Assembly: GCA_020349885.1 (NCBI GenBank)
Contig: CP070701.1
Coordinates: 793,631 to 857,630, forward strand
Direction of reading: 5' to 3'
DNA: 64,000 nucleotides
From: Acidobacteriota bacterium
Lineage (GTDB): Bacteria > Acidobacteriota > G020349885
A model generated the notes under the pieces. That model was not told the origin of the DNA and made no database searches. It saw nothing but the letters and a program-made list of their open reading frames with translations. Position 1 is the first letter of the stretch. Each line of letters opens with the position of its first letter. The position numbers were made by a program, and so were the translations under genes. Positions 38,521 through 56,058 of this stretch are shown one piece after another.

Positions 38521-39909
38521 TCACAGGTGCTCCCTCACGTCAGCCACGCGGCCTTCGACGGCGGCTGCGGCGACCATGGCCGGGCTCATGAGCAGGGTTC
38601 TTCCTTGGGGGCTCCCCTGCCTGCCCTTGAAGTTCCGATTGGACGAGGACGCGCAAACTTCGTCGCCCACCAACCGGTCGGGGTTCATCGCCAGACACAT
38701 GCTGCACCCCGCGTTCCGCCATTCGAATCCGGCCGCCCTGAAAATTTTTTCCAGGCCCTCTTCTTCGGCTTGCCGCTTCACCGCCGCGGAGCCCGGAACG
38801 ACCATGGCGCGGACGCCCTGGCGGACGCTCTTGCCTTGGACGACCTTGGCCGCCTCCCGCAGGTCGGAGAGCCTGGCGTTGGTGCAGGAGCCGATAAAGG
38901 CCACGTCGATTTTCTTCCCTTTGAGAGATTCTCCCCTCTCGAACCGCATGTACGCGAGCGCGTCGGAAAAAGCGTTCTCCTCCTCCTTTTCAACGCTCCG
39001 GGGAATCGCTTCGCCGATACCTATGCTCTGTCCGGCGTTTACGCCGTACGTAACCATGGGTTCAATGTCAGTGCCACCCAGAACGACCTCGTCGTCGTAG
39101 CGCGCGTCCTCGTCCGACCTTACGGAGTTCCAGAATTCCACCGCGTCGTCAAAGTTCTTCGGCGCGTACTCCCGGCCCTTCAGGTAGTCGTACGTGACCC
39201 GGTCCGGGTTCACGTAGCCCATCCGCGCCCCTCCCTCGATACTCATGTTGCACACGGTCATTCTTTCATCCATGGAGAAATTATCCATAACCTCTCCCCC
39301 GTACTCGTAGGCGTGGCCGATGCCTCCCTTGGCTCCCAATTCCCGGATGACTTTCAAGATAACGTCCTTCGCGTATACCCCTTTCCCCAGGCGTCCCTCC
39401 ACGCGAATTTTTCTCAGCTTCGGCTTCGCCATGGCCAGGCACCCCGTGGCCAAAACGTCCCGCACCTGCGTCGTTCCCACCCCCATCGCCAGGGCGCCGA
39501 AGGCGCCGTGCGTGCTCGTGTGGCTGTCGCCGCAGGCGATCGTCATGCCGGGCTGCGTCAGGCCGTTCTCGGGACCGACGACATGCACGATTCCATGCCG
39601 CTCGTCCCACGGGCCAAAGAACCGGATCGCGCCTTCCCTGACATTTTCCTCCAAGGCCCTCATCATCTCCTCGGCGAGAGGGTCCTCGAACGGCCTCGAC
39701 GCGTCCAGTGTGGGAATGATGTGGTCCACGGCGGCCGCGGTGTGCCCGGGGTACTTCACTTTCAACCCGCGCTCCCGAAGCATGGAAAACGCCTGCGGGC
39801 TCGTCACCTCGTGAATGAGGTGCAGGCCGATGAATATCTGGTCCAATCCCGATTGCAGCTCCGCAACCTTGTGGATTTCCCAAATTTTATCCAGCAGTGT
39901 TTTTCCCAT
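38521..39909 (-). CDS. leuC: 3-isopropylmalate dehydratase large subunit
   Basis: A 462-residue LeuC of the aconitase superfamily. It has the [4Fe-4S] cysteine motif [15 protein letters not shown], the second cysteine pair region [12 protein letters not shown], and [14 protein letters not shown]. It is the first gene of leuCDB on the minus strand. In many bacteria leuA would lie immediately upstream; here leuA is 8.7 kb away behind four opposite-strand genes. Confidence 0.97.
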
Positions 39910-39986
39910 GGAAAGTTCCGAGAAAAAAAGAAACGTGCATCCTACAGGCTAAGATTATCACGGACAGGAGGGGGTGGGCAAGCGGT

Positions 39987-40033
39987 GGCGGAAAATCGGC
40001 GAGGTGAGTATAATGGACGGAAGCCGCGCGGCA
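39987..40033 (+). promoter_or_regulatory. Promoter-bearing 47-bp repeat, copy 1
   Basis: Contains a perfect TATAAT -10 box (40009-40014). It is about 43/47 identical by hand alignment to 44344-44390, which lies upstream of the glutaminase gene. The -35 region is not evident. It probably starts transcription of the permease gene at 40128. The rest of 39910-40127 shows nothing further. Confidence 0.65.
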
Positions 40034-40127: not shown

Positions 40128-41549
40128 ATGGCATCGGAAAAACCAACGTCTATCTCCATACGGCGGCTCGCCGTCTGTCTGGCCATTGGCGCGGCCGCAT
40201 GGGTCGTTCCCGCACCCGAAGGGTTAACGGCGGCGGGATGGCATGTGCTCGGGGTCTTTGCCGCCACGATTGCGAGCTTTGTCATACGGCCGCTGCCGAT
40301 GGGAGCGATGGTATTGCTCGGATTGATCGCACTCTCCGTAACAGGAACACTTCCCTACAAGAGCATGCTGGAGGCGTTCGGCAACATTACCGTCTGGCTG
40401 GTGGTTGCAGCGTTTCTTCTCGCCGGAGCGGTTGGCCGAACCGGCTTTGGCCGGAGGATCGCGCTCGGCTTCATGGCCTTTCTCGGGCGCTCGACGCTCG
40501 GGCTCGGCTACTCGGTCTGTGCCTCGGAGGTTGTCCTTGGGCCGATCGTTCCATCCAACACGGCCCGCGGTGGTGGAATCATAGCTCCCATCATAAGATC
40601 GCTGTGCGTAGAGCTCAACTCACATCCCTCCGAGCAACCGGAGCGGGCGGGTCGGTATCTGACCCTGGTGGGGGCGCATGCGAACCTCGTTACGGCCGCC
40701 ATGTTTTTGACCGGAATGGCGGCTAACCCGCTGTTGAAGGCGGCGGCTGAAGATGTCTTTCAGATAGATTTCGGTTTTTGCACCTGGGCGATCGGAGCGC
40801 TCGTTCCAGGACTTGTCTCGCTTGGTCTGCTCCCCCTGTTAATGTATAAGCTCTCCCCGCCGACGCTCAAGGATTCCCGAGCCGCTCAGGAAAAGGCGCG
40901 CTCCGACCTCAAGGCCATGGGCCGCTGGACGCGAGGCCAGATAGTCATGGCGGCGGTTTTCGTGCTACTGCTGGTGCTCTGGTCCACAAAGCCGATCCAC
41001 GGGATGGGGACCGGGCTGGTGGCCTGGCTCGGGGTTTGCATACTGCTCGTATCGGGCACCGAGGGCTGGCAGGACGTGACGGGAAACGCCAGAGCCTGGG
41101 ACACGTTGTTCTGGCTCGGCGGCCTGTTGGCCATGGCGGGCGCTCTCAAATCCGAGGGCGTGGTCGGCTGGTTCGCGCAGGCGATGCAAGACCAGGTGGC
41201 CGGACTTGGCAGCATCACGCTCGTGCTGATCCTCGCCCTCATTTATTTCTACTCCATGTACGGTTTCTCGATGCTGACGGCCCACATCTCGGCGCTTGCG
41301 ACCGCCTTTTTCGCAATCGCCGCGAGCGCCGGCGCCCCGCCCATGCTCACGATTGCGCTGCTGGCGTACTTCTCGAACCTGTGCGCTTGCACCACGAACT
41401 ACTCGACGGGGCCGGTGATCATCTACTTCGGCTTGGGCTACGTGCCGTCGCAGAGTTGGTTCAAGGTCGGCGCGCTCGTATCTCTTTTCCACCTGGCCGT
41501 ATGGCTTGGCGTGGGGATGGCTTGGTGGAAAATCCTCGGCTGGTGGTGA
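40128..41549 (+). CDS. DASS-family anion permease (CitT/SODiT1-like)
   Basis: A 473-residue membrane protein with about 12 helices of the divalent anion/sodium symporter (DASS, SLC13) family. The first substrate-site motif is Ser143-Asn144-Thr145 in VPSNTARGGG. The second half carries FSNLCACTTNYSTGP as in CitT/2-oxoglutarate-malate translocators. Likely substrates are di- or tricarboxylates or related anions; specificity is not readable. A very strong RBS (AAAGGAGG) precedes the ATG. DASS proteins share the IT-superfamily fold with TRAP DctM, which matters because the next gene encodes TRAP-type (TAXI) binding domains. Confidence 0.92.
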   Translation: MASEKPTSISIRRLAVCLAIGAAAWVVPAPEGLTAAGWHVLGVFAATIASFVIRPLPMGAMVLLGLIALSVTGTLPYKSMLEAFGNITVWLVVAAFLLAGAVGRTGFGRRIALGFMAFLGRSTLGLGYSVCASEVVLGPIVPSNTARGGGIIAPIIRSLCVELNSHPSEQPERAGRYLTLVGAHANLVTAAMFLTGMAANPLLKAAAEDVFQIDFGFCTWAIGALVPGLVSLGLLPLLMYKLSPPTLKDSRAAQEKARSDLKAMGRWTRGQIVMAAVFVLLLVLWSTKPIHGMGTGLVAWLGVCILLVSGTEGWQDVTGNARAWDTLFWLGGLLAMAGALKSEGVVGWFAQAMQDQVAGLGSITLVLILALIYFYSMYGFSMLTAHISALATAFFAIAASAGAPPMLTIALLAYFSNLCACTTNYSTGPVIIYFGLGYVPSQSWFKVGALVSLFHLAVWLGVGMAWWKILGWW

Positions 41550-41735
41550 GTCCAGGGCATTCTTCAGCCAAGGCTCAAGAATGTCCTGCTTCGACGGGAG
41601 CAGACGAAGGACTTGGGATGGGTGAGGTGTCGTGGGAAGCCCGCTCATTACCAAACTCTGTTTCGTCGGTCGCGGGGTGCTTCTCTTTAGCGCAGCGCCG
41701 TGGCAGGGCGCCATCAAATATAGCAAATCCGATCA

Positions 41736-41744
41736 TGCTATAAT
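41736..41744 (+). promoter_or_regulatory. Extended -10 promoter before the tandem-TAXI gene
   Basis: TGCTATAAT is a full extended -10 (TGnTATAAT). No good -35 is seen, as is usual for this class. The gap 41550-41818 also holds a hairpin cattctt...aagaatg (about 41557-41583) just after the permease stop, which could be a weak terminator. Confidence 0.55.
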
Positions 41745-41818
41745 GATAGTTCGCAAAAGAAAGGCTTTTCCATGAGCCAAAAAGAACGGTGTTTGTTGGT
41801 TATCATGGGGAGGATCGC

Positions 41819-44302
41819 ATGAGCCGCCGCACGCTCGCATGGCTCGTTGCCTTGAGTGCCATTCTGATCGTGCTGGTGGCGGTGGTTGTCCGGCTCAGGC
41901 CGAAGCCTTCACTGCAGCACCTGAAGATATCAACCGCAACCATAGGGGGCACTTACTACCCGCTAGGGGCTCAACTCGCCCGAATTCTCGAGCAACTTCC
42001 AGGCCGGCCCATCCAGCGCGCGGTGGCGGAACAGTCAAACGGTTCGGTCGAGAACATCCAGCGCCTGGTCAACGCACAGGCTGATGTTGCTTTTGTCATG
42101 GGGCCGGCACTTTTCAGGGCTATCCGCGAAAGTCCCGAAGCCGAGTCGACCATAAGCGTTCTCGCCCGTCTCTACAAGGATGACGTTCTCGTCGTGGTAC
42201 GCAAGGAGACGGGAATTAGGAACATAGCCGGCCTGAAGAATGCAAGACTCTTCATTGGTTCCCGGACCAGCGGAACACGGATGGCGGCGACGCATATCCT
42301 CGAAACCGTCGGCCTCTCCGAAAATGACTATACGGCCGACGACGCTGGAAGCTTCGCGGAGGCCGCGAACAGACTCATAGAAGGAGATATCGACGCGGCG
42401 TTCTTCATGGTGGGGATGCCGGCCGAAGCAGTGCAGAGAGTACTTGAATGGGGAGGGGCCGAACTGCTGAGCATGGCTGCCGAGACCCGACGACAACTGG
42501 CATCGGGCCCGGACAGCATCGGGCTGGCAGCGGACGAGTTGCCTGCGAATCTCTTTCCGAATCAACCCAAAAGCATCCACACCATGTCCGCGGACGTCTT
42601 TCTCGTCGCCCGGAACGACCTCCCGCGGGACATAGGTTTTATCATCGTCAAGGCGCTTTTCGACAATATCGCCGACTTGCTGCTTGCGCACCCCAAGGCC
42701 CAGGATGTCAAGTTGACGGAGGCCTTCGATGTGCCGGAAGGCCTCCCCTTTCACGCGGGCGCGGCGAAATTCCGGAAAACGGAGGAGGGCTCGCTGCTCA
42801 TAGCCACGGGAGCCATCGAGGGGAAAAACTACCGACTCGGCAAGATGATGCAGGCGCTGCTCGCCGAGCGCGGGATTCCCGCCCGGGTGACCCACAGCGA
42901 CGGATCTCTGGAAAACGCGATGCTGCTCAGCAAGCGCCCTTCGATAGCCATCATGCAATACGACGCCGCCCTGGCCTCGCGCTTCGGCAAGCCCCGATTC
43001 GTGTATAACCTCGATCTCGACGAGCTCAGCGTTCCCACCGTCAGCAACATACAGCGACTCGCCGTTCTGCACGACGCGAAAGTCCAAATGTTCATACGCA
43101 GAGAGAAGCTTGCACTACTGGAGGAAAGCCTCAACCAAGGCCTTCCGCCTTCGAAACGAACGGCGATCACGACGCTGGGTGAGGTAGCAACGGCTCTGGG
43201 GAAGCTGCCGCCGGGCGAGCCGAAGCTCCGGGTGTGCCTCGGCCCGGTGAACAGCGCCACGCAGATGGTCGCGCGAGTCGTCTTGAAGCACCATGGTGTT
43301 CACTCGGATTCAATCACGCCGTTGTTTCTGTCGGTTCCGAACATGGTGGCACGGCTCCACAGCGAAGAGATAGACGTGGGTTTCTTCGTCAGCTACGTGC
43401 CCTGCCTGGCGATAAGAACGATCCTCAACGACGACTCGATCAAGCTTCTGTCCATGGCGCCGAAAGAACAGGCTCTGATGTCGGGAACCGTTTTCACCAT
43501 GTCCACGATCGAGCCCGGCACGTACGCGTGTCAAAGGGAAGACGAGCCGGCGATTCAAACCCTTTCCATCCACGAGGTGCTGGCCACCACGGAAGACCTG
43601 CCGTTCGACGTCAAGGCCATCACGAGGGCGATCTTCGAAGGGGAAGCGTTTCTGAACATTGCTGGCGGGGCGGATGCGCTGGCGCTGGATCTCGCTTCGC
43701 TCCCGCTGCATCCCGATGCGAAGGAGTATTACCAGGAGGCCGGGCACCTTCCCGCCACCTTCGTGTGGCACCAGCCTTTCGAGTGGATCCATGCAACGTG
43801 GCGCCTCCTGGCGACTCTCGTGATTGTTGTCGCCGGCTGTGCGGGCGTCATCAAGCTGAAGCGTAACCGAACCGCCACCGAAATTGGAAGAAAAATTCTC
43901 GCTATCTCTCCTGGAGTGACCGAGTCGGACTCGGTGGAAAAGTTGCTGGTGATCCGCGATGAAATTCAAGAGCGAGTTCGCAGAAGATGGTGGCACTTGG
44001 GAGAGCTGGACAACTCTCACTGGCGCTACCTGCACGGTCTGATTGACGACAGGGTGAACGAAGCAAAGAAAATCCTGACGAGGGCGCTGGTCTCCGAGAT
44101 CCGACGCTACGGGAAGGACGGCGCCATGGATGGTGCGGTGCGGCAAGCGCGGCATGATTCCCTCATGCAACGCATCTGGGCTTTCTTCGAGTCGGGCGAA
44201 CTGGAGGCGGCACAGCACGATCTGCTCTTGAAAATGTTGCAAGACCACGCCCCGCAAGACTCCGTGGAACAGACGCCCCGCGATGAAAAAGATGAGTCCT
44301 AA
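41819..44302 (+). CDS. Membrane-tethered tandem TAXI solute-binding protein
   Basis: An 827-residue protein with an N-terminal membrane anchor (about 6-26). TAXI domain 1 covers about residues 33-325: STATIGGTYYPLGAQLARIL, SNGSVENI, FIGSRTSGTR, and a LPFHAGAAK end. TAXI-like domain 2 covers about 327-635: ATGAIEGKNYRLGKMMQALL, SDGSLENAMLL, and a LPLHPDAKEYYQEAG end. A second membrane segment (about 655-675) leads to a helical cytoplasmic tail of about 150 residues. TAXI domains are binding components of TRAP transporters, often for glutamate-like ligands. No TRAP DctM gene is present; a DASS permease precedes it. The ATG at 41819 has GGGGAGG upstream. Confidence 0.85.
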   Translation: MSRRTLAWLVALSAILIVLVAVVVRLRPKPSLQHLKISTATIGGTYYPLGAQLARILEQLPGRPIQRAVAEQSNGSVENIQRLVNAQADVAFVMGPALFRAIRESPEAESTISVLARLYKDDVLVVVRKETGIRNIAGLKNARLFIGSRTSGTRMAATHILETVGLSENDYTADDAGSFAEAANRLIEGDIDAAFFMVGMPAEAVQRVLEWGGAELLSMAAETRRQLASGPDSIGLAADELPANLFPNQPKSIHTMSADVFLVARNDLPRDIGFIIVKALFDNIADLLLAHPKAQDVKLTEAFDVPEGLPFHAGAAKFRKTEEGSLLIATGAIEGKNYRLGKMMQALLAERGIPARVTHSDGSLENAMLLSKRPSIAIMQYDAALASRFGKPRFVYNLDLDELSVPTVSNIQRLAVLHDAKVQMFIRREKLALLEESLNQGLPPSKRTAITTLGEVATALGKLPPGEPKLRVCLGPVNSATQMVARVVLKHHGVHSDSITPLFLSVPNMVARLHSEEIDVGFFVSYVPCLAIRTILNDDSIKLLSMAPKEQALMSGTVFTMSTIEPGTYACQREDEPAIQTLSIHEVLATTEDLPFDVKAITRAIFEGEAFLNIAGGADALALDLASLPLHPDAKEYYQEAGHLPATFVWHQPFEWIHATWRLLATLVIVVAGCAGVIKLKRNRTATEIGRKILAISPGVTESDSVEKLLVIRDEIQERVRRRWWHLGELDNSHWRYLHGLIDDRVNEAKKILTRALVSEIRRYGKDGAMDGAVRQARHDSLMQRIWAFFESGELEAAQHDLLLKMLQDHAPQDSVEQTPRDEKDES

Positions 44303-44311
44303 AGCTTGTCG

Positions 44312-44353
44312 CCTGGCCGTTCGGCTCGGCGTGGGGACGGCTTGGTGGAAAAT
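44312..44353 (+). pseudogene. Remnant of a second DASS gene 3' end
   Basis: These 42 bp match 41492-41533, the codons for the C-terminus of the DASS permease (LAVWLGVGMAWWKI), at about 38/42 positions by hand alignment. In frame the remnant reads LAVRLGVGTAWWKI. No upstream part of the gene remains. It is fused directly to the promoter repeat at 44344-44390. Confidence 0.7.
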
Positions 44354-44390
44354 TGGCGAGGTGAGTATAATGAGCGGAAGCCGCGCGGCA
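44344..44390 (+). promoter_or_regulatory. Promoter-bearing 47-bp repeat, copy 2
   Basis: Near copy of 39987-40033 with the same TATAAT (44366-44371). It probably drives the glutaminase gene and the channel-fusion gene behind it. Together the two copies suggest shared control of both halves of the cluster. Confidence 0.65.
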
Positions 44391-44468
44391 GGCTGGTCAC
44401 GAAATACCCGCGGAGCTTGTCCGCAGAGCTTCGGCTTTTAGCTGGGAAAAAGAAAACAGGAGGCAATA

Positions 44469-45518
44469 GTGAAAGTTTTGAAAATATATATCCATCTATT
44501 GCTCTTTGTCCTCTTTATAGCGAGTCCCCATGTTTCCTGGGCCGAGGAGGCCTTTTCCGCAGGCACGATTCTTCCCACCTCGCCCCAAGAGATAGAGCAA
44601 ACGCTTTCAGAAATGCACCAAAAATATATGGCCCTTAAGGACGGAGAGGTGTATATCTCCGGAACAGAACAGGTGAATCCCGACTGGTTTGGTATCGCCA
44701 TCGCGACGGTTGACGGCCGCGTCCACATGGTCGGGAATGCGGACACGCCCTTTCCGATTCAATCGATCGCCAAGCCTTTCGTCTATGGGCTGGCCTTGGA
44801 AGACCACGGCCGCGAGATTATGCTGAAGAAAGTAGGCGTGAATGCCACGGGCCTTCCCTACGACTCCATCATCGCTTCCACTGTTCGGGCGAAGCAATTG
44901 CAAAACCCCATGGTCAGCGCCGGAGCGATTGCCACGACAAGCCTCATCAAAGGCTCGACCGCGAAAAAGAAATGGGCCCGCGTGCGCCGCGTGTTCTCTC
45001 GCTATGCCGGCCACACACTGCCGTTGAACGAGCAGGTGTACCAAGCGGAAATGAAACAGAGTGCCATGAGCCGGGCGCTGGCGGAACTTTTAAGCGCCTA
45101 CCATCTTCTTTACGCCAAGGTGGACGACACCATCGCGCTGTACCTCAAGGGAACCTCCCAAAGCGTCACGGCAAAAGATTTGGCCATCATGGGAGCAACC
45201 CTAGCCAATTGGGGCGCCAATCCTCTCACGCAGGAACGGGCAATCAAAGAAAAGTATGTGCAGAACATCCTCTCCGCCATGGTAACGGCCGGCCTCTATG
45301 ATGACTCCGGGGAATGGCTGTTCAAGGTCGGCCTGCCCGGGAAAAGCGGCGTGGGAGGCGGCATTGTGGCGGTCGTTCCGGGAAGATTCGCCGTTGCCGT
45401 CTATTCTCCGCCTCTAGACTCGAGCGGCAACAGCGTCCGTGGTGTCCACGTCGTTCAAGACCTGTCGAATCGATGGGATTTGCACATGTTTTCTCCGCGC
45501 AGGGAAGAGTCACGCTGA
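44469..45518 (+). CDS. Secreted glutaminase
   Basis: A 349-residue member of the glutaminase (GlsA) family, serine-dependent beta-lactamase-like fold. It has the catalytic Ser99-Ile-Ala-Lys102 (SIAKPF), NPMVSAGAIA and GLPGKSGVGGGIVAV. It deamidates glutamine to glutamate. Unlike usual cytosolic GlsA it carries a strong signal peptide (residues 1-25, ending VSWAEEAF), so the reaction should occur in the periplasm or outside. The start is a GTG preceded by AGGAGG. Several long insert regions (RVFSRYAGHTL and others) differ from standard enzymes. AT-rich 5' end; lower GC than flanking genes. The channel gene follows after 55 bp. Confidence 0.9.
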   Translation: MKVLKIYIHLLLFVLFIASPHVSWAEEAFSAGTILPTSPQEIEQTLSEMHQKYMALKDGEVYISGTEQVNPDWFGIAIATVDGRVHMVGNADTPFPIQSIAKPFVYGLALEDHGREIMLKKVGVNATGLPYDSIIASTVRAKQLQNPMVSAGAIATTSLIKGSTAKKKWARVRRVFSRYAGHTLPLNEQVYQAEMKQSAMSRALAELLSAYHLLYAKVDDTIALYLKGTSQSVTAKDLAIMGATLANWGANPLTQERAIKEKYVQNILSAMVTAGLYDDSGEWLFKVGLPGKSGVGGGIVAVVPGRFAVAVYSPPLDSSGNSVRGVHVVQDLSNRWDLHMFSPRREESR

Positions 45519-45573
45519 GAGACCTCGTGCGCTCATTCGAGAGCAGCAGCGGAAAACGCAGCAGAGAAACGTA

Positions 45574-48500
45574 ATGTCCAATAAAGGCTGGAAGCTTATC
45601 CTCGGCGCACTCGTCTTCAGCGTTGGCGTCGGGATCGTTATCACACACTTCCTGGGCAAAATCCGCCGGCCTGCCTCGTTCGAAGCGCTCCGCGCTGGTT
45701 TCATCGAGGAGTTCATCACCCGCAATGATGGATACCCCGGTCTCAGGGAGCACTACGGACTGAGGTTCCCCTCTGACCCGGAAGAGTTCGATCCCTACAT
45801 GATTTACCAGCAAGTAGCCGAACAGCGGGTCGATGTGATCAGCGGCCACTCTACCGCTGGGAGTATGCAAGGTTATGACTTAGCCATATTGGAAGACGAC
45901 AGGAATTTCTTTTTGCCCTACGAAGCGGCGCCGCTCGTTCGGCGGCAGACGCTTGATGAGCATCCCGAACTCAAGGACATCCTCGGGAAGCTCGCCGGGC
46001 AGATTTCGGAAGAGCAAATTCGTGAAATGAACTATCAAGTAGAGTACCGCGGCAAGGACGCCGCAGAGGTGGCCTGGGATTTTCTCGTTTCAAGAAAGCT
46101 CATTGATCCAGGCAATGAGCCGGGAGACGGATCGGCCGGCACCATCACAATTGGGGCCAAGTTTTTCGCCGAGCACGACATCCTCACAAGACTGATGGCC
46201 GTCCTAATCGAGCACCATTCCAACGTCAAAGTTTTGCGCAAGTTGAAGTTGATCGGGACGGCAACCTGTTTCGACGCGCTGCGGAGAGGCCAAATCGATC
46301 TCTACGTCGAATACACGGGGACAGGGCTGATTCTCTTGGAGCCGCTGCTGAGTCAGATCATCCAGGAGCCGGGCGAAGCGTTTGAAACGGTTCGGCACAA
46401 ATTCGCAGACGAGTATGACCTCGTATGGCTGGACCGCTTTGGTTTTAACAACACCTGGACGCTTGTTATGCGAAGCGAGCAAGCCCGACAACTCGGTATC
46501 AAGACCATCTCTGATCTGGCGAACGTTCTGAAGGAGCAATCCGAAACTCTGGCGCGACGCACGCACGGCGTCGGAATCTCTCCTCCGAGAACCGCTGCAC
46601 CGAGCCCACCAAGGGAGGCCCCCTTGACGGCTGCGGAACACCTTCGATCCTTGGAACGCAGGCAACAGCCTCCCACCGAGTTTGGCAGGCGAAGTGTGAC
46701 GCAGGAGGAGTACTTTCGGGCCAAGCATGATTTGGCCGATTCTGAAATGGAGCTGGATTCTGTGCGCGAACGCCTCCGTGCCGAACTGCCCAAGGCCCTG
46801 AAGGCTGCTCAAGAATCAAAAGAAAAAGCCCTCACGGCCCGTGTCGAGGCCGAAAAGCACCGGGTGAGTGTTTTCGAACAAGAGCGGAAGCTCAAGGAGC
46901 ACCGGCTGTCCATGGCCGAAACCGCAGCAACGACGACGTCGATCAAGGAAGTCTACGCCGCGTACCGGCGGGTGGCCATGACCGAAGACCTCTATCGCTA
47001 TGTTCAGGCGCTGGTGGACTCGTTGGAGGATGCGCGCCATGAATACGTCAGACATCAGGAGTTATTGAAAGAGCTGATGGCAGAACCCGGGAAGACGGAA
47101 GTGGCTGCCGAAGACCTAAAAACCCTTCGTGACGAGCTGGAGCAGGCGCCCAGGGAAATCACCATCCTCGCGCAACATGCCGACACGGCCGCTCGGCGAC
47201 TGGAGCAAGTGAAGAATCAGGTCTCCTTGGCACGAGAGCGACTGGAGATCTCAAAGGAGCATCTGAAATTGGAGCCTAAACCGGATGTGTCTGCGAGGCC
47301 CGATTCCACGAGAAGCCTTCCTGCCGGCGCCACCCTGGACGAACTCAAGCGGGAGACGGAGCGTAGGAAAGCTGAAGCCCAAAGCGCCGAGAACAAAGCC
47401 GACCTTGCTGAGGAGGAGGCCGATCAAGCCAGGGAGCTTACCGTCACAGAGTTGAAGGAAATGACAGACTTCGAGTGGGAACTGAGATATGCGCGGGATG
47501 TGCTGAAGAGGCTCCAGAGGGAGGGGGTTTCTCCGGATACGACCGCGGCCGCCCAGGAAAGGATTGATTTTCTAGAAGGCACGCTGGCCCGCATCCAGAC
47601 AACTCTGTCCCAGCTCGAACAGTCGATGAAGGAAAACAGGCAGCGAGCGCGAGAAAAACGCCTCCACGCCGAGTCGATGCACCGGGCCGCCGAGGATGCC
47701 GCGGCACGGCTGCGCGAAGAAGAGACAGAGCTCTTCAACGAAAAGATTCGAAAGCGGGGGCTGGCTGGCTTTTTTGCCGCGCTTACGATTGGGCTGGCCG
47801 TGTGGGTCCATCGCCTGGTTCGAGATAAGGAACGCCTGAGCCTGCGGGGCGTGACGGACCCCGAGAAGACGAAACGGATCCACACTCCCTACGTGCTGAT
47901 CCGCCGGATTGCCGTTCCACTCATTGGCATTGTGGGAACCCTCCTTGTCCTGCTGCAATTCGAGACGTTCCAGCGCATCAGCCTATCGATTCTCGCCTCG
48001 GCGGGAATCGCGGGCGTCGTCGTTGGGCTCGCCGCCCGGAGCCTGCTTGCCAACGCGGTGGCGGGGGTGACGCTCGCCTTCTCCCAGCCGATCCGGATCG
48101 GCGACACGGTCAAGATGGGTGACGAATGGGGTACGATTGAGGACATCGGCCTATTCCATACGATCTTCCTCGTGTGGGACCACCGGCGTATGGTCATTCC
48201 CAACGAAGTCCTGGCGGGGCGGGAGATCGTCAACTACTCCCTACGCGACCAGAAAATTTGGACCAAAGTGCCGATCTACCTCGACTACGACGCCGATGTG
48301 AAGAAAGCCCGTGAGATCCTGATTGAGGTAGCCAAGGAAAGCAAGAACTGGAATGGAAAGGATGAGCCGGAGGTGTGGTTCATGGAACTGGGCGAGCAGA
48401 CCATCTGCCTGTGGATTGCGGCATGGGCGGATGATCCTGATAAAGCATGGAGGCTTGGCTGCGATATTTTGGACAATGCCCTTCGAAGATTTCAGGAGGA

Positions 48501-48591
48501 AGGGATTCCACTGCCGCGCAGGCGCTTTCAGCTCGATGGCCCGCAGATCGCATTCGAACCGGAAAAAGGCCCGCGAGCCAAAGAAGAGTGA
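45574..48591 (+). CDS. OpuAC (permuted) - coiled coil - MscS channel fusion
   Basis: A 1005-residue fusion. Residues 7-27 form a membrane anchor. Residues about 34-177 match the second half of an OpuAC betaine/choline-type binding domain (EEFITRNDGYPGLREHYGL, then GHSTAGSM and LEDDRNFFLPYEAAPLVR). Residues about 190-320 match the first half (GTITIGAKFFAEHDILT, DLYVEYTGTG, GFNNTWTLVMR, TISDLANVL). The halves are thus in swapped order. A long coiled coil follows (about 370-725), then helices near 729-750 and 775-800, and an MscS pore and beta domain (IAGVVVGLAARSLLANAVAG, then QPIRIGD and VIPNEVL) to the end. A ligand-influenced mechanosensitive-type channel is inferred. The ATG at 45574 sets the anchor. 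Confidence 0.85.
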   Translation: MSNKGWKLILGALVFSVGVGIVITHFLGKIRRPASFEALRAGFIEEFITRNDGYPGLREHYGLRFPSDPEEFDPYMIYQQVAEQRVDVISGHSTAGSMQGYDLAILEDDRNFFLPYEAAPLVRRQTLDEHPELKDILGKLAGQISEEQIREMNYQVEYRGKDAAEVAWDFLVSRKLIDPGNEPGDGSAGTITIGAKFFAEHDILTRLMAVLIEHHSNVKVLRKLKLIGTATCFDALRRGQIDLYVEYTGTGLILLEPLLSQIIQEPGEAFETVRHKFADEYDLVWLDRFGFNNTWTLVMRSEQARQLGIKTISDLANVLKEQSETLARRTHGVGISPPRTAAPSPPREAPLTAAEHLRSLERRQQPPTEFGRRSVTQEEYFRAKHDLADSEMELDSVRERLRAELPKALKAAQESKEKALTARVEAEKHRVSVFEQERKLKEHRLSMAETAATTTSIKEVYAAYRRVAMTEDLYRYVQALVDSLEDARHEYVRHQELLKELMAEPGKTEVAAEDLKTLRDELEQAPREITILAQHADTAARRLEQVKNQVSLARERLEISKEHLKLEPKPDVSARPDSTRSLPAGATLDELKRETERRKAEAQSAENKADLAEEEADQARELTVTELKEMTDFEWELRYARDVLKRLQREGVSPDTTAAAQERIDFLEGTLARIQTTLSQLEQSMKENRQRAREKRLHAESMHRAAEDAAARLREEETELFNEKIRKRGLAGFFAALTIGLAVWVHRLVRDKERLSLRGVTDPEKTKRIHTPYVLIRRIAVPLIGIVGTLLVLLQFETFQRISLSILASAGIAGVVVGLAARSLLANAVAGVTLAFSQPIRIGDTVKMGDEWGTIEDIGLFHTIFLVWDHRRMVIPNEVLAGREIVNYSLRDQKIWTKVPIYLDYDADVKKAREILIEVAKESKNWNGKDEPEVWFMELGEQTICLWIAAWADDPDKAWRLGCDILDNALRRFQEEGIPLPRRRFQLDGPQIAFEPEKGPRAKEE

Positions 48592-48603: not shown

Positions 48604-50142
48604 TTAATTCAACGCCGAGGCCTTGAAGTTCAGCGCCCGGTTCATCCCCTTGATGAGCGCCAGCACCGAGGCCATGATCACGTCCTGGTCGATGGCGTCC
48701 CCCAGGAAAATGTTTCCGTTCTCGTCTTCCAGCCGCACCGTGACGTCGGCCAGGGCGTCCGTGCCTCCGGTAATAGCTTTCAGTTTGAATTCCTTCAATT
48801 TGATTTTCGGGTCCACCACGTTTCGAATGGCGGCCGAGGCGGCGTCCACCGGCCCCACGCCGGTGCCCTGCCCGACTTTTCTCACGCCGTTCACCTGAAG
48901 CTCGACGGTCGCCGTCGGCCTCGTCTTGTTTCCCGTCGTGATCTGGAAATCCACCAGCTGGATTTTGGTCTCCTCTTCGCTCAGCTCTCCCACCACGTCA
49001 CTCGCGATGGCGACGATGTCGTCCCTCGTCAATTCTTTTTTCTTGTCGGCCAGCTCCTTGACCTTCGTGGCGATCTCGTCCACCTGCTCCTCCTTGACGT
49101 CGTAGCCCATCTCCCGGACCACTTTCTCCACGGCATGCCTGCCCGAATGTTTTCCCAGGACCAAATTCGTGCCTACCCAGCCGATGTCCTCCGGGTTCAT
49201 AATTTCGTACGTGCGCTTGTGCGATATGACGCCGTGCTGGTGGACGCCGGCCTCGTGGGCGAACGCATTGGCCCCCACGATGGCTTTGTTTCTCTGGACC
49301 GCGATGCCCGTCAGGCTCGAAACCAGTCTCGATGTCTTGAAGATTTCCTTCGTATTGACGTTGCAGTGGAAGTCCCCGAAGAAATCCTTTCGCGTCTTGA
49401 GGTTCATCACGACCTCTTCCATGGAGCAGTTTCCGGCCCTCTCGCCGATGCCGTTGACCGTGCACTCCACCTGCAGGGCGCCGTTTTGGACGGCCGCGAG
49501 GGAGTTGGGAACGGCGAGTCCCAAATCGTTGTGGCAGTGGACGCTGATCACCACGTCCTTGGCTTCAGGAATCTTCTTAAAAATATACTTTATCCTTTGC
49601 CCGAACTCCTCGGGCTGCGCGTACCCGACCGTGTCCGGGATGTTGATGGTCGTGGCCCCCGCGGCAATGGCCTCGCGCACCACGTCGCACATGTAGTCCA
49701 GGTCGGTCCGGGCCGCGTCCTCCGGGCTGAACTCCACGTCCCCGGTGTATCCCTTCGCCCGCTTTATCGACTCGGTGGCCATTTCAATCACTTCTTCCTT
49801 GCTTTTGCGGAGCTTTTTCTCCCGGTGGATCTGGGACGTGGCTATGAACATGTGGATCCGGGCTTTCTCGGCATCCTTCAGCGCTTCCCATGCCCGGTCA
49901 ATGTCCTGCGGCATAGTTCTAGCCAGGCCGCAAATAACGGAGCCTTTTACGTTCTTGGAAACCAGCTTAACGGCCTCGAAATCCCCTTCCGAGGCGATGG
50001 GGAAGCCAGCTTCGATGACATCCACACCCAGTTTCGCGAGCTGCTTGGCGATAATCAATTTTTCGTTGATCGTCAAGCTGGCCCCGGGGCTCTGCTCGCC
50101 ATCCCTTAGGGTGGTGTCGAAAATGATTACCCTTTTGGACAT
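48604..50142 (-). CDS. leuA: 2-isopropylmalate synthase
   Basis: A 512-residue LeuA catalysing the first committed step of leucine synthesis. It has FDTTLRDGEQSPGASL, the metal-binding HCHNDLGLAVPNSL, NGIGERAGNCSMEE and a C-terminal LeuA dimer/allosteric domain (from about 390) with TGGTDALADVTVRLED. The length is typical of the feedback-regulated type. It shares its strand with leuCDB, but the 40128-48591 cluster on the other strand lies between. Own promoter at 50194-50222. Confidence 0.97.
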   Translation of the reverse strand: MSKRVIIFDTTLRDGEQSPGASLTINEKLIIAKQLAKLGVDVIEAGFPIASEGDFEAVKLVSKNVKGSVICGLARTMPQDIDRAWEALKDAEKARIHMFIATSQIHREKKLRKSKEEVIEMATESIKRAKGYTGDVEFSPEDAARTDLDYMCDVVREAIAAGATTINIPDTVGYAQPEEFGQRIKYIFKKIPEAKDVVISVHCHNDLGLAVPNSLAAVQNGALQVECTVNGIGERAGNCSMEEVVMNLKTRKDFFGDFHCNVNTKEIFKTSRLVSSLTGIAVQRNKAIVGANAFAHEAGVHQHGVISHKRTYEIMNPEDIGWVGTNLVLGKHSGRHAVEKVVREMGYDVKEEQVDEIATKVKELADKKKELTRDDIVAIASDVVGELSEEETKIQLVDFQITTGNKTRPTATVELQVNGVRKVGQGTGVGPVDAASAAIRNVVDPKIKLKEFKLKAITGGTDALADVTVRLEDENGNIFLGDAIDQDVIMASVLALIKGMNRALNFKASALN

Positions 50143-50387: not shown

Positions 50388-51890
50388 ATGCAAGAACTTT
50401 TCGCCATTGCCGAGGAAACGGGAATCTTAAACGCCTTCAAGGCCGTGGGCATTCTGGTCTTTGGAGTGCTCTTTGCCCTGGCCTTATTCATCATCGTGCG
50501 GGCGGCGCTCCGCCGCACGGAGATCGACAACCGGCTGGCGCGGTGGTTCCTCGGCGACGTGAGGGCAAGATCGATGGAAGTGGAGCAGGCGATCGCAAAG
50601 GTGATTTTCTACCTCATCCTTGTCGTTTTCCTGGGCTTGTCTTTCCAGGTGCTGGGGTTCACGCTCATCACCGAGCCGCTCATCCGGTTTTTGACCAAGC
50701 TCTCCGAGGTGGCCCCGCAGCTGATCGGCGCGGGAGCCTTGCTGCTCTTCGCCTGGGTCGTGGCCACGGTGCTGAGGCTCACCCTCATGCGGGTGTTGAG
50801 CGCCGCGAGACTTGACAAGCACCTCGCAACCTCCGCGGGCTTCGAAGAGGAGGGACAGGCCGCGGTGAGTCAGACGCTCAGCAACGCGGCGTACTGGCTG
50901 GTTTTCCTGCTCTTTCTGCCCGGGGTGCTGAGTGTGCTGAGCGGGCTGGGGCTGCAGGGGCTGCTGGAGCCGGTGCAGGGGATGATGAACAAAGTCTTCA
51001 GCTTTCTGCCGAACATTCTTTACGCCGGCGTGATCCTGGTGGGCGGCTGGCTCATCGCGCGCATTCTGCAGCGGATTGTGGCCAACCTTACGGCCGCCGC
51101 CGGCGCGGACCGGCTGAGCGAACAGGCGGGGCTGACCGCGGTGCTCGGAAAACACCGGCTCTCCGACCTGCTCGGGCTCATCCTCTACGTGCTGGTCCTC
51201 ATCCCCGTGCTCATCGCCGCCCTCGACAAGCTGAAACTGGCGGCCATCACGCAGCCCGCAACCAACATGCTGAACAGGATCTGGGTGGCCCTTCCCAACA
51301 TCTTCGCCGCCGTTCTGCTGCTCCTGGTTTCCTACTGGATCGGGCGCGTGGTCGCCGGGTGGATCACCAACCTGCTGGAGGGCCTGGGCTTCAACGCCAT
51401 CCTGCGCCAGCTCGGCCTCGGCAAGGAGCCCGCCGAGGGCGAGAGGACGCCTTCCGAGATTGCGGGGGGTCTGGTTCTCGTGGCGGTCGTGCTCTTTGCG
51501 AGCGTGGAGGCGTTCCAGCTTCTCGGCTTCTCCCTCGTGGCCGACCTGGTCTACCAGTTCCTCGTCGCGGCCGGCCAGGTTCTCGTGGGGCTGCTTGTCT
51601 TCGCCATCGGCCTCTACCTGGCCAGCGTGGCGGCGCAGGCCGTGCTCGCGAGCGGGACGACGCAGGCCAGCCTGCTCGCCCTCGCGACGCGGGTTTCCAT
51701 CATCGCGCTCGGGGGCGCCATGGCCCTGCGGCAGATGGACCTTGCGAACGAGATCATCAATCTCGCCTTCGGCCTGCTGCTCGGGGCCGTGGCCGTGGCC
51801 GTGGCCCTGGCCTTCGGCCTCGGGGGCCGGGACATCGCGGCGCGCGAGCTTGAGGCCTGGCTCAAGTCCCTCAAAAGCAAGAAGTCCTGA
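50388..51890 (+). CDS. Multi-helix mechanosensitive-channel-like membrane protein (conserved TM helix repeats)
   Basis: A 500-residue integral membrane protein with about ten or more helices. It has repeated 'conserved TM helix' (PF05552-like) units such as LPNILYAGVILVGGWLIARI and LPNIFAAVLLLLVSYWIGRV followed by amphipathic segments. This is the CmpX-like arrangement related to MscS-type channels. The canonical MscS pore and beta domain is not obvious, so gating is unproven. RBS AGAGGAGG precedes the ATG. A TTGCTA/TATACT pair (50252-50281) may be its promoter. The gene is divergent from leuA. It is the second channel-like gene within 6 kb. Confidence 0.85.
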   Translation: MQELFAIAEETGILNAFKAVGILVFGVLFALALFIIVRAALRRTEIDNRLARWFLGDVRARSMEVEQAIAKVIFYLILVVFLGLSFQVLGFTLITEPLIRFLTKLSEVAPQLIGAGALLLFAWVVATVLRLTLMRVLSAARLDKHLATSAGFEEEGQAAVSQTLSNAAYWLVFLLFLPGVLSVLSGLGLQGLLEPVQGMMNKVFSFLPNILYAGVILVGGWLIARILQRIVANLTAAAGADRLSEQAGLTAVLGKHRLSDLLGLILYVLVLIPVLIAALDKLKLAAITQPATNMLNRIWVALPNIFAAVLLLLVSYWIGRVVAGWITNLLEGLGFNAILRQLGLGKEPAEGERTPSEIAGGLVLVAVVLFASVEAFQLLGFSLVADLVYQFLVAAGQVLVGLLVFAIGLYLASVAAQAVLASGTTQASLLALATRVSIIALGGAMALRQMDLANEIINLAFGLLLGAVAVAVALAFGLGGRDIAARELEAWLKSLKSKKS

Positions 51891-52472: not shown

Positions 52473-54062
52473 TTACCAGGTCGCCACCAAGCTGGCGTAC
52501 GCGCGGTACGCGTTGTCTTCGCCCCATTCGGTCTCGCTATCGTCGATCGCGTCTTCGTCTGTCCAGTATTCCCAGCCGCCGTAGTAGGCGTCGGTGGCAG
52601 CGGCCACGCGGTCGCCCTCGATGATGTAGGAGAGGTTGAACGCCGAGCTGAGGTGCTCGCTGTACTGGTAGGTGAGCCAGGCGTCGAGCTCGGTCGCCAG
52701 ATCCGAATCCACGTCGATGGAGTCTTGCGTGCTATCGTTCCACCAGTCGTAACTGCCCATGTCGAACTCGTCCTCCAAAGCCATTAAGAACACGAGGTTC
52801 GCACCAAAGTTGATGGAGTCGTTCGCCTTCATCTTGAAGTTGAGCTGCGGGATGAGCGCGCCCGACGAGGCGCCGTTCGTCGGACCCAGCATGGTGTAGA
52901 ACGGCGACGTGATGTCGTAGTTCCAGCCATTGCTCAGGATGGACGAGTAGAGGAGGTCGGCGTTGCCCCAGCGGCCGTGGCTGTCGCCGAAGAGGCGCCA
53001 GAAGCCGTCCCGGTCCTCATCGGCGGAATAGTCCGTCGCGTCGTCGCCCGTGATGTAGGTGAGGCCGAAGGCGAGGCGCGGCTCGTAATCGCTGTCGAAC
53101 GTGTAGCCGATGACGCCGTTGAAGGCGATGCCGTTGCCGTCCTGTTTGCTCATGGGTCCGCCCCAGCCGGTATCCCAGCTGTTGTCCTGCCACGCGAGCT
53201 CAGCCGACCAGTCGAAGCCGGCAAAGGCCTCCCTGCTGAACCAGCGCACGCCCAGGGTCATGGTGTCGAAGTCCGAAGCCACCTGGGTCGTAGCATTCGC
53301 GTTGAAGTTGCCGTGCAGCAGGTAGCCCTCGACGCCCTGGCGGTCGGTGACTCTCCACGTCGTGTAGACGCCGCGGAGGTCGCCGTCGTCCTCGTTCGAG
53401 TAATCGTTGATGGTCCTCGTGTAGACCTTGTACCAGAAGATCGCGAGGTCGACCTGGTCATTTCCCCAGTCCGCGCGGAGGCCGTCGAACGAGACGCCGT
53501 CGTACCAGTCGTCGTCGCCCATCAGGAACTCGTCCCCGAGGGGCGAGGTCTGGCGGCCCAGCTTGAACGACCAGTTGCTGTCCCAGGCGTTCCGGATGTG
53601 GATGTAGGCCTCGAACAGGCTGAAGTAGTCATACTGCGTGCCGAGGCCTGAGCCGGCGGTTTCCCAATAGTCATCGAACGTGACGTCTTGCCGGACGATG
53701 GGAGCCATGCCATTCTCGGGGCCAAAGATGTAGCCGTCTTCGCCCCAACCCATGCCGAACCAGCCCACGTCCTGGAGGTTCACCACGACGTCCACGTTGC
53801 GCGTCACGAGAGCCTTCAACACGATGTTCGCGCGCCACGGGGTGTAGGAGAAGTCGTCGTCACAGAAGATGGAAGGGCAGACAGCGTTGCTGCTCCAGTC
53901 GTCATTGTGATCCGTGAAGTCGTAGATGTTGTTGTAGTAATCCCAGCGGATCCGGAGACCCCCCGAGACTTCGAGATCCGTGTTGCCGACCGTCGTCACG
54001 GTGCCTGCAAAGACAGGCGCGACGAGCAGCGCCGCCACGGACATGATTAACAGTTTCTTCAT
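52473..54062 (-). CDS. Porin-like outer-membrane beta-barrel (alginate-export-like)
   Basis: A 529-residue outer-membrane protein. The signal peptide is MKKLLIMSVAALLVAPVFA (19). Alternating amphipathic strands, many Trp, Tyr and Asp residues, and a C-terminal ...YASLVATW end fit a beta-barrel. WSFKLGRQTSPLGDEFLMGD matches the 'GRQ' segment of alginate-export/carbohydrate porins. The substrate is unknown. The gene has a strong RBS (AGGAGG) and a leader of roughly 410 nt. Confidence 0.88.
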   Translation of the reverse strand: MKKLLIMSVAALLVAPVFAGTVTTVGNTDLEVSGGLRIRWDYYNNIYDFTDHNDDWSSNAVCPSIFCDDDFSYTPWRANIVLKALVTRNVDVVVNLQDVGWFGMGWGEDGYIFGPENGMAPIVRQDVTFDDYWETAGSGLGTQYDYFSLFEAYIHIRNAWDSNWSFKLGRQTSPLGDEFLMGDDDWYDGVSFDGLRADWGNDQVDLAIFWYKVYTRTINDYSNEDDGDLRGVYTTWRVTDRQGVEGYLLHGNFNANATTQVASDFDTMTLGVRWFSREAFAGFDWSAELAWQDNSWDTGWGGPMSKQDGNGIAFNGVIGYTFDSDYEPRLAFGLTYITGDDATDYSADEDRDGFWRLFGDSHGRWGNADLLYSSILSNGWNYDITSPFYTMLGPTNGASSGALIPQLNFKMKANDSINFGANLVFLMALEDEFDMGSYDWWNDSTQDSIDVDSDLATELDAWLTYQYSEHLSSAFNLSYIIEGDRVAAATDAYYGGWEYWTDEDAIDDSETEWGEDNAYRAYASLVATW

Positions 54063-54657: not shown

Positions 54658-56058
54658 ATGAAACTCCTCGACTCCCACGCCCACCTGACGGACGAGAAGT
54701 TCGCCCCGGACTTGGACGCAGTGCTCGAGCGCGCCCGCGAGGCGGGCGTCGTGCGCATTCTGAACGCGGGAAGCGACCTCGCCGACTCCGAGAAAGTCAT
54801 CGCTCTTGCCGAGCGCCACGACGGCATGCACGCCGCCGTCGGCATCCACCCGCACGAGGCGAAGACCGCCGACGGCACGGCGTTCGAGCGCCTGCGCGAG
54901 CTCGCGAAAAACGCGAAGGTGCTCGCCATCGGCGAGACCGGCCTCGACTACCACTACGACAACTCCCCGCGCGAGACGCAACGCGAGGTTTTTCGCAGCC
55001 ACATCCGCCTGGCCAAGGACACGGGGCTGCCCCTGGTCGTGCATTCCCGCGAGGCCGAGGAGGACACGCTCCGCGTCCTGGACGAGGAGGACGGCTGGCT
55101 CCCGGGCGGAATTTTTCATTCCTTCACGGGGAGCGGGCGCATGGCGCGCGCGGCGATCGAGAACGGCTGGATGGTCTCGCTCTCGGGCATCGTCACGTTC
55201 CCGAGCTCAACCGCCCTGCGCGACGTGGTCAAGAAGCTGCCTTACGAAAACCTCCTCATCGAAACCGACTGCCCCTACCTCGCGCCCGTCCCCGTGCGCG
55301 GCAAGCGCAACGAGCCGGCCTTCGTCGTCCACACGGCCGAGGCCGTCGCGCAGTTCATGCCCCTGAGCCCCGGCGACGTGGCGCGCATCACGCTCGCCAA
55401 CTTCGAAAGGCTCTTTCGCCTCTCGACGCGCCCGGAGGAGGACACTTATGTTTACCCGATCCGCGACTCGCTCTACCTCAACCTGACGAGCCGCTGCACG
55501 AACGAGTGCTCGTTCTGCGTGCGGGAGTACCTCGACGGCGTCTCGGGCTACTACCTCTGGCTCCGGAAGGAACCCTCGGTGCGGGAGGTGCTCGACGCCG
55601 TGGGCGACCCGTCGCGCTACGACGAGATCGTCTTCTGCGGCTACGGCGAGCCGACGCTCCGCCTCGACGTCATCAAGGCCGCGGCGAAGGAGCTCCGCAA
55701 GCGCGGCGCGCGGGGCTTCCGCCTCACCACGAACGGCCACGCGAACCTCATCCATGGAAGAAACGTCGTGCCCGAGCTGGTCGGCGTCATCGACCGCGTC
55801 TCGGTAAGTCTCGACGCGCACGACAGCAGGACGTATCAAGAGGTGAGCCGGCCCAAGTTCAAGGGGGTGGACGTCTTCGCGGAGGTCTTGAAATTCGCCG
55901 AGGAATGCGTGCGGCTCCTGCCCCGACGTAGTCGGGGCAAGCCGAAAGTGGAGCTTACGGCGGTCGCGGACCCGCGCGTGAACGTCGAGACCTGCAAGAG
56001 AATCGCGGAGAAGATGGGCGCGGCGTTCCGGACGCGGGAATTGAACGTGGTGGGGTAA
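54658..56058 (+). CDS. TatD-family nuclease fused to a radical SAM domain
   Basis: A 466-residue two-domain protein. Residues 1 to about 258 are a TatD metal-dependent hydrolase: DSHAHL with His7 and His9, GIHPHEAK, GETGLDYHY, HSFTGS, and ETDCPYLAP. From about 270 there is a radical SAM domain with Cys280/Cys284/Cys287 (CTNECSFC) for the 4Fe-4S cluster and the GYGEPTLR motif of TatD-linked radical SAM proteins. TatD is a DNase/RNase-type enzyme; what the SAM domain modifies is unknown. A palindrome ccccgac/gtcgggg (55921-55937) lies in frame and encodes PRRSRG. No RBS is obvious at the ATG. Confidence 0.93.
   Translation: MKLLDSHAHLTDEKFAPDLDAVLERAREAGVVRILNAGSDLADSEKVIALAERHDGMHAAVGIHPHEAKTADGTAFERLRELAKNAKVLAIGETGLDYHYDNSPRETQREVFRSHIRLAKDTGLPLVVHSREAEEDTLRVLDEEDGWLPGGIFHSFTGSGRMARAAIENGWMVSLSGIVTFPSSTALRDVVKKLPYENLLIETDCPYLAPVPVRGKRNEPAFVVHTAEAVAQFMPLSPGDVARITLANFERLFRLSTRPEEDTYVYPIRDSLYLNLTSRCTNECSFCVREYLDGVSGYYLWLRKEPSVREVLDAVGDPSRYDEIVFCGYGEPTLRLDVIKAAAKELRKRGARGFRLTTNGHANLIHGRNVVPELVGVIDRVSVSLDAHDSRTYQEVSRPKFKGVDVFAEVLKFAEECVRLLPRRSRGKPKVELTAVADPRVNVETCKRIAEKMGAAFRTRELNVVG

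Follow-up and report, generated by a model that had tools for sequence, protein, structure and literature searches.

The 64,000-nucleotide stretch of DNA analysed here (the window) contains an 8.5-kb block of four intact plus-strand open reading frames, which encode a DASS-family carrier (473 aa; 40128..41549), a tandem-TAXI membrane protein (827 aa; 41819..44302), an exported glutaminase-family hydrolase (349 aa; 44469..45518) and an OpuAC-coiled-coil-MscS fusion (1005 aa; 45574..48591). An earlier note on this DNA had named these four families and had placed all four products in the membrane or periplasm; strong Pfam/NCBIfam scores uphold the family assignments, and the families, transmembrane (TM) helices and a signal peptide bear out the locations. 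All four frames run uninterrupted over 8 kb, and three of the four genes have good ribosome-binding sites.

The block and its promoter-like elements within the leucine operon

The block lies inside the leucine-biosynthesis operon, between leuC on its left (38521..39909, minus strand; leuD and leuB lie beyond) and leuA on its right (48604..50142, minus strand), and is oriented opposite to the leu genes, with the stop codons of the fusion gene and leuA converging 12 nt apart. By comparison, leuA immediately precedes leuC in no fewer than four relatives (L279, L280, L282 and L283), and another relative (L278) has the order leuA-leuB-leuC-leuD; none of the relatives returned by the search was nearer than the phylum Acidobacteriota. 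GC3 is 0.76 for the DASS gene, 0.73 for the TAXI gene, 0.67 for the glutaminase gene and 0.69 for the fusion gene, compared with 0.76–0.89 in the flanking leu and other neighbouring genes. Because the block separates two genes that adjoin in relatives and has a lower GC3 than its surroundings, it looks like a group of acquired genes inserted into the leu operon. The neighbourhood beyond leuA holds a second membrane protein of mechanosensitive-channel type (50388-51890, plus strand), which has MS_channel_1st_1 repeats and lacks the beta domain, followed by an outer membrane porin of Alginate_exp type (52473-54062, minus strand) and a fusion of a TatD DNase with a radical SAM domain (54658-56058, plus strand).

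The DASS and glutaminase genes are each preceded by a TATAAT-containing promoter-like repeat (39971..40033 and 44328..44390, both plus strand). The earlier note had described these repeats as near-identical, and the resemblance is real, amounting to 84% identity over 63 nt; a pattern related to the repeat found two matches in the window and none in 100 shuffles. The 24-nt core before the DASS gene, AAAATCGGCGAGGTGAGTATAATG, occupies 39992-40015. With zero mismatches, AAAATNGGCGANNNGAGTATAATG occurs at exactly three sites in the 2.4 Mb genome, namely before the DASS gene, before the glutaminase gene and about 135 nt before the start of pgk, the phosphoglycerate kinase gene (G000:C1:391386-391425, L003). 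All three core copies are intergenic and lie ~95–135 nt ahead of a start codon, and the 24-nt core had no match on a reversed control with up to three mismatches allowed. Since the genome holds only three copies and the control none, we regard the element as specific and shared. Its -35 region is dissimilar to TTGACA, and the DASS and glutaminase sites were absent from the list returned by a simple promoter scan.

The TAXI gene is bracketed by 42-nt direct repeats of 90% identity, of which the left copy is the 3' end of the DASS gene (41492..41533, plus strand) and the right copy (44312..44353, plus strand) is fused to the left side of the glutaminase promoter element. Since the 3' end of the DASS gene recurs beside the glutaminase promoter in this way, the most economical history would be one in which the DASS and glutaminase genes started out as neighbours and the TAXI gene came between them afterwards. 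The likeness between the two promoter elements could, for the same reason, merely reflect duplication of the surrounding DNA. The TAXI gene has a TATAAT-like site of its own near 41739 and follows a 270-nt gap, so it may form a separate transcription unit.

Substrate-site residues of the carrier, receptor and hydrolase

Homology to the DASS family spans the whole carrier (Na_sulph_symp, PF00939, 5.5e-122; dass, 1.5e-103; Pfam/NCBIfam), whose ATG has GGAGG upstream. In sequence it belongs to an exchanger-like clade, the nearest solved structures being those of chloroplast DiT1 and DiT2.1 and of LaINDY. In DASS exchangers of this clade (LaINDY, plant DiT1/DiT2), Arg159 of LaINDY at Na1 and His392 at Na2 serve as Na+ surrogates (PMC7553777). 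The window carrier retains the equivalents of Arg159 (Arg147, in PSNTAR) and His401, whereas the His392 equivalent is Met377, at a position where His is found in all 52 of 52 DASS homologs and in DiT1, DiT2.1 and LaINDY. Position 382, in the substrate loop beside the His392 equivalent, is also Met (Ser in 50 of 52 homologs), so that the loop reads SMLT and not ASGT, and position 424 is Asn where most homologs have His. These three replacements might leave less positive charge near the substrate, which would fit a less acidic one.

The TAXI gene is better started at ATG 41819, with GGGGAGG 5 nt upstream, than at GTG 41789. Its product (NMT1_3, 7e-76; TRAP_TAXI, TIGR02122, 5.5e-79; PF16868, 7e-27 for the second domain alone) is laid out as an N-terminal TM helix, two TAXI domains, a second TM helix and a C-terminal region of ~150 aa that matched no known family. 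Glutamate binding is common among TAXI proteins (PMC11574862, PMC12344293), and in VcGluP the substitution Y45A cuts glutamate affinity 213-fold and Q93A 990-fold (residue roles from PMC11574862). The first domain (41924..42778, plus strand) keeps the Tyr45 equivalent and has Met at the Gln93 equivalent; the second (42791..43768, plus strand), 30% identical to the first, has the Gln and carries Asn at the Tyr45 equivalent. Hence neither domain combines these two main determinants, which makes doubtful the earlier proposal that the receptor captures glutamate. We initially counted the Gln-to-Met change in the first domain as unusual and dropped it, because the site is variable (Gln in 11 of 40). 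Since position 93 varies across TAXI proteins, we take these residues to argue against the glutamate claim and not for lost binding.

No TRAP membrane subunit gene is present among the open reading frames adjoining the TAXI gene. A TAXI protein can serve a non-TRAP elevator carrier, as in the TAXI-GltS systems, and the DASS and TRAP membrane subunits have their fold and elevator mechanism in common (PMC12344293); a TAXI-DASS pairing is thus thinkable. The Bordetella pertussis pair BP0403/BP0402 likewise sets an inner-membrane-tethered TAXI protein beside a non-TRAP secondary carrier (PMC12344293). Relative to TAXI-GltS, the window has DASS in place of GltS, TM anchors and two TAXI domains rather than a lipoprotein, genes that do not overlap, and a pairing found in one genome only.

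For the glutaminase-family gene the start codon is GTG 44469, preceded by AGGAGG, and the product carries a typical signal peptide with cleavage at ..SWA/EE. It matches the Glutaminase family at 5.8e-101 (Pfam/NCBIfam) and, over its whole length, the nearest solved protein, YbaS, at 7e-65. As in YbaS and GLS, the Ser-Lys dyad (Ser99, the nucleophile, and Lys102) and the equivalents of Tyr249 and Tyr466 are kept; Tyr62, Glu194, Tyr225, Tyr277 and Val295 are conserved as well. Unlike those glutaminases, the window enzyme is exported and has Ser at the positions of two residues of human GLS, Asn335 (Ser150; 44916..44918) and Asn388 (Ser201; 45069..45071), that are active-site contacts (PMC4575731, PMC9060542). 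Both positions are Asn in 129 of 129 homologs, a set made up of 80 from a genome contig collection and 49 from Acidobacteriota. Forty positions are at least 95% conserved in the homologs; the window protein departs at six of them and keeps 34, whereas no other homolog departs at more than three, and their median is 0.

We take the enzyme, by preference, to be an active hydrolase whose substrate has changed and is probably not plain glutamine; it may instead be weak or inactive. With two invariant Asn residues of the glutaminase replaced by Ser and the carrier lacking its conserved His, the conversion of external glutamine to glutamate proposed in the earlier note becomes doubtful. The remodelled pocket also serves as a warning that family matches alone do not justify naming such a cluster a glutamine system.

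A permuted OpuAC domain joined to an MscS core

The fusion is the most unusual single element of the block. Its best start is ATG 45574, with a weak ribosome-binding site, and its matches are to OpuAC (9e-54), MS_channel_2nd (2.8e-14) and MS_channel_3rd (4e-10; Pfam/NCBIfam). Both OpuAC lobes are present in circularly permuted order: the C-terminal half comes first (45685..46110, plus strand; residues 38-179, with residues 35-171 aligned to profile positions 113-255 and a match to residues 140-274 of chain 1sw1) and the N-terminal half second (46132..46530, plus strand; residues 187-319). There follow a periplasmic coiled coil (46561..47748, plus strand; ~residues 330-725), which gave weak matches to coiled-coil families and to no other fold, and then three TM helices with the MscS beta and C-terminal domains (47764..48510, plus strand). 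The MscS core is complete in pore helix, beta and C-terminal domains (PF00924, PF21082; MscS matches at residues 783-984), and the predicted topology consists of one TM helix, a large periplasmic part, three TM helices and a cytoplasmic MscS end. In MscK and MscM, too, a long periplasmic part precedes the pore, beta and C-terminal domains of MscS type; in contrast, the periplasmic part of the fusion opens with an OpuAC domain, and only four TM helices are predicted.

We had entertained the permutation as unique to the fusion, an idea that two relatives overturn: lobe order was canonical in 14 relatives and permuted over the whole domain in two (L266 and L271). One of these (L266:1483-2631, minus strand) is an OsmF/EgtU-type domain of 49% identity with an N-terminal TM anchor, encoded beside an ABC permease and ATPase; the other (L271:820-2397, plus strand), also of OsmF/EgtU type and 41% identical, is fused behind an ABC permease. 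Because these importers share the permuted order, the OpuAC domain of the fusion looks like part of an ABC importer that has acquired a coiled coil and an MscS core as fusion partners. Compared with the binding proteins of OpuAC/EgtU-type ABC importers, both lobes remain recognisable at no more than 49% identity, whereas their order is reversed, they are attached to a channel and not to a permease, and the Asp of the TDG motif (Asp95) is replaced by Ala. The TEQ motif reads AEH, and the cation-box aromatics are mostly kept (Tyr244, Tyr247, Trp295 and Tyr116). An AlphaFold2 model of residues 1-330, computed without an alignment, reached a pLDDT of 42.5, which is too low for use. A literature search of incomplete coverage found nothing relevant on fusions of solute-binding proteins to MscS and no description of an MscS channel that itself senses an external solute.

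Co-occurrence of the genes and models for the block

We searched for the TAXI, glutaminase and DASS proteins in 396 Acidobacteriota genomes each, and for TAXI also in 50 mixed and 299 Pseudomonadota-centred genomes; the fusion query was run against 60 Acidobacteriota, 189 Planctomycetota-centred and 175 cyanobacteria-centred genomes (~420) and 72,556 plasmids. The four-gene set was found in no other searched genome, and the module proposed in the earlier note is not supported as a conserved one within this sample. At 1e-30, TAXI matches occurred in 3 of 396 Acidobacteriota genomes, the other two being single-domain, as were all matches in 7 of the 50 mixed and 25 of the 299 Pseudomonadota-centred genomes. 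Across 40 TAXI loci there was no tandem TAXI protein and no DASS, glutaminase or fusion gene within 1.5 kb, and none of those with a readable tail had a C-terminal TM helix. Twenty of the nearest DASS genes had no glutaminase, TAXI or fusion gene within ~9 kb. The OpuAC-MscS fusion itself was found neither in the ~420 genomes of three phyla nor on the plasmids, a first scan of genome contigs with the fusion query gave no match, and plasmid searches with the TAXI and fusion queries yielded single-domain matches only.

The glutaminase had matches in 59 of 396 Acidobacteriota genomes, and here alone did two of the families turn up together elsewhere: among 100 larger loci, a DASS gene lay within 10 kb of an exported glutaminase in three, all from Acidobacteriota (G175, G118 and G254). 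To this extent there is a weak precedent for the synteny that the earlier note looked for; no other combination of its genes turned up in the genomes searched. The three DASS proteins are 32–33% identical to the window carrier, no TAXI or OpuAC-MscS fusion gene accompanies them, and in two of the three genomes the cluster also includes AspT, asparaginase, aspartase and a DcaP porin. Over the 100 loci, the neighbours of exported glutaminases were DcaP porin (28), amidohydrolase (19), a porin-like protein without a Pfam or NCBIfam match (17; for example L080:10265-11914), aspartase (9), asparaginase (9) and AspT (7). The DcaP-glutaminase cluster recurs across Acidobacteriota, Bacteroidota and Gammaproteobacteria (L078-L091 in Acidobacteriota; L147, L148, L152, L153, L155, L167, L171, L188 and others). 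It looks like a deamidation-and-uptake cluster typical of many exported relatives, and the window gene lies outside it. MscS-type genes near exported glutaminases were seen at 3 of 80 loci (L148, L182 and L143), in unrelated genomes and, by a rough estimate, at about the level of chance.

Our leading interpretation, which we hold tentatively, is a local, genome-specific assembly for solute handling and not a conserved module. In a deep-branching lineage of Acidobacteriota, an 8.5-kb acquired block would have landed between leuA and leuC, running opposite to the leu genes. Its substrates, the hand-over between TAXI and DASS, ligand control of the channel and co-regulation are elements that we infer: the DASS carrier would act as an inner-membrane exchanger of a small carboxylate, and the tethered tandem TAXI protein would capture the same solute and either pass it to DASS or report to the cytoplasm, as TAXI proteins have been proposed to act with GltS (PMC12344293). 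The exported enzyme would hydrolyse amides in the periplasm through its altered pocket, and OpuAC-MscS would be an osmotic release channel whose gating is tuned by the permuted solute-binding domain on its long periplasmic arm. The shared promoter-like element would turn on DASS together with the glutaminase and channel genes, the latter two as a pair.

No comparative evidence binds the four genes to one another, because no second genome has the set or a TAXI gene with DASS. It is accordingly quite possible, if less probable than such an assembly, that four unrelated acquired genes became chance neighbours, with no joint function, at a leu intergenic site tolerant of insertions. The range of GC3 within the block (0.67–0.76), the gaps and separate promoter-like sites that divide it into two or three units, and the suggestion of stepwise growth in the direct repeats around the TAXI gene all fit this account, as does the failure of the set to recur; yet all four products are membrane or periplasmic solute-handling proteins encoded on the same strand, and the element before two of the genes has a single other copy in the genome.

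The glutaminase clusters bear on a third account, in which external glutamine is converted to glutamate, bound by TAXI and imported by DASS, with the osmolyte-gated channel as a safety valve. The three genomes that pair an exported glutaminase with DASS, and the amino-acid genes and DcaP porin in two of those clusters, speak for it; so does the DASS relative DiT2, a glutamate/malate exchanger. The frequency of glutamate binding among TAXI proteins points the same way (PMC11574862, PMC12344293). We nevertheless consider it unlikely, as the glutaminase has lost two invariant active-site Asn residues, the carrier lacks the His392 equivalent, neither TAXI domain has the Tyr45 and Gln93 pair, and the DASS proteins of the other clusters are so distant from that of the window. 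The altered active sites could mean loss of function, and the alteration of several invariant residues in two proteins would suit a block that is decaying or being lost; this is the least probable account, however, given that all four frames are open and three genes have good ribosome-binding sites, that the catalytic dyad, the signal peptide, the pore helix and the Arg of the carrier are intact, and that the glutaminase keeps 34 of 40 conserved positions.

The local assembly, in its boldest form, would combine MscS tension gating set by an external osmoprotectant-like ligand with a TAXI-dependent DASS transporter, both acting on a substrate other than glutamine or glutamate; we rate this combination as rather improbable. 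A TAXI-DASS pair, if true, would add another class to the elevator transporters that depend on a binding protein, and the TAXI-GltS study names such a class as the test of what its authors propose (PMC12344293). A ligand-tuned fusion, for its part, would let an MscS channel read an external solute directly, so that a single polypeptide would respond to both chemical and mechanical cues.
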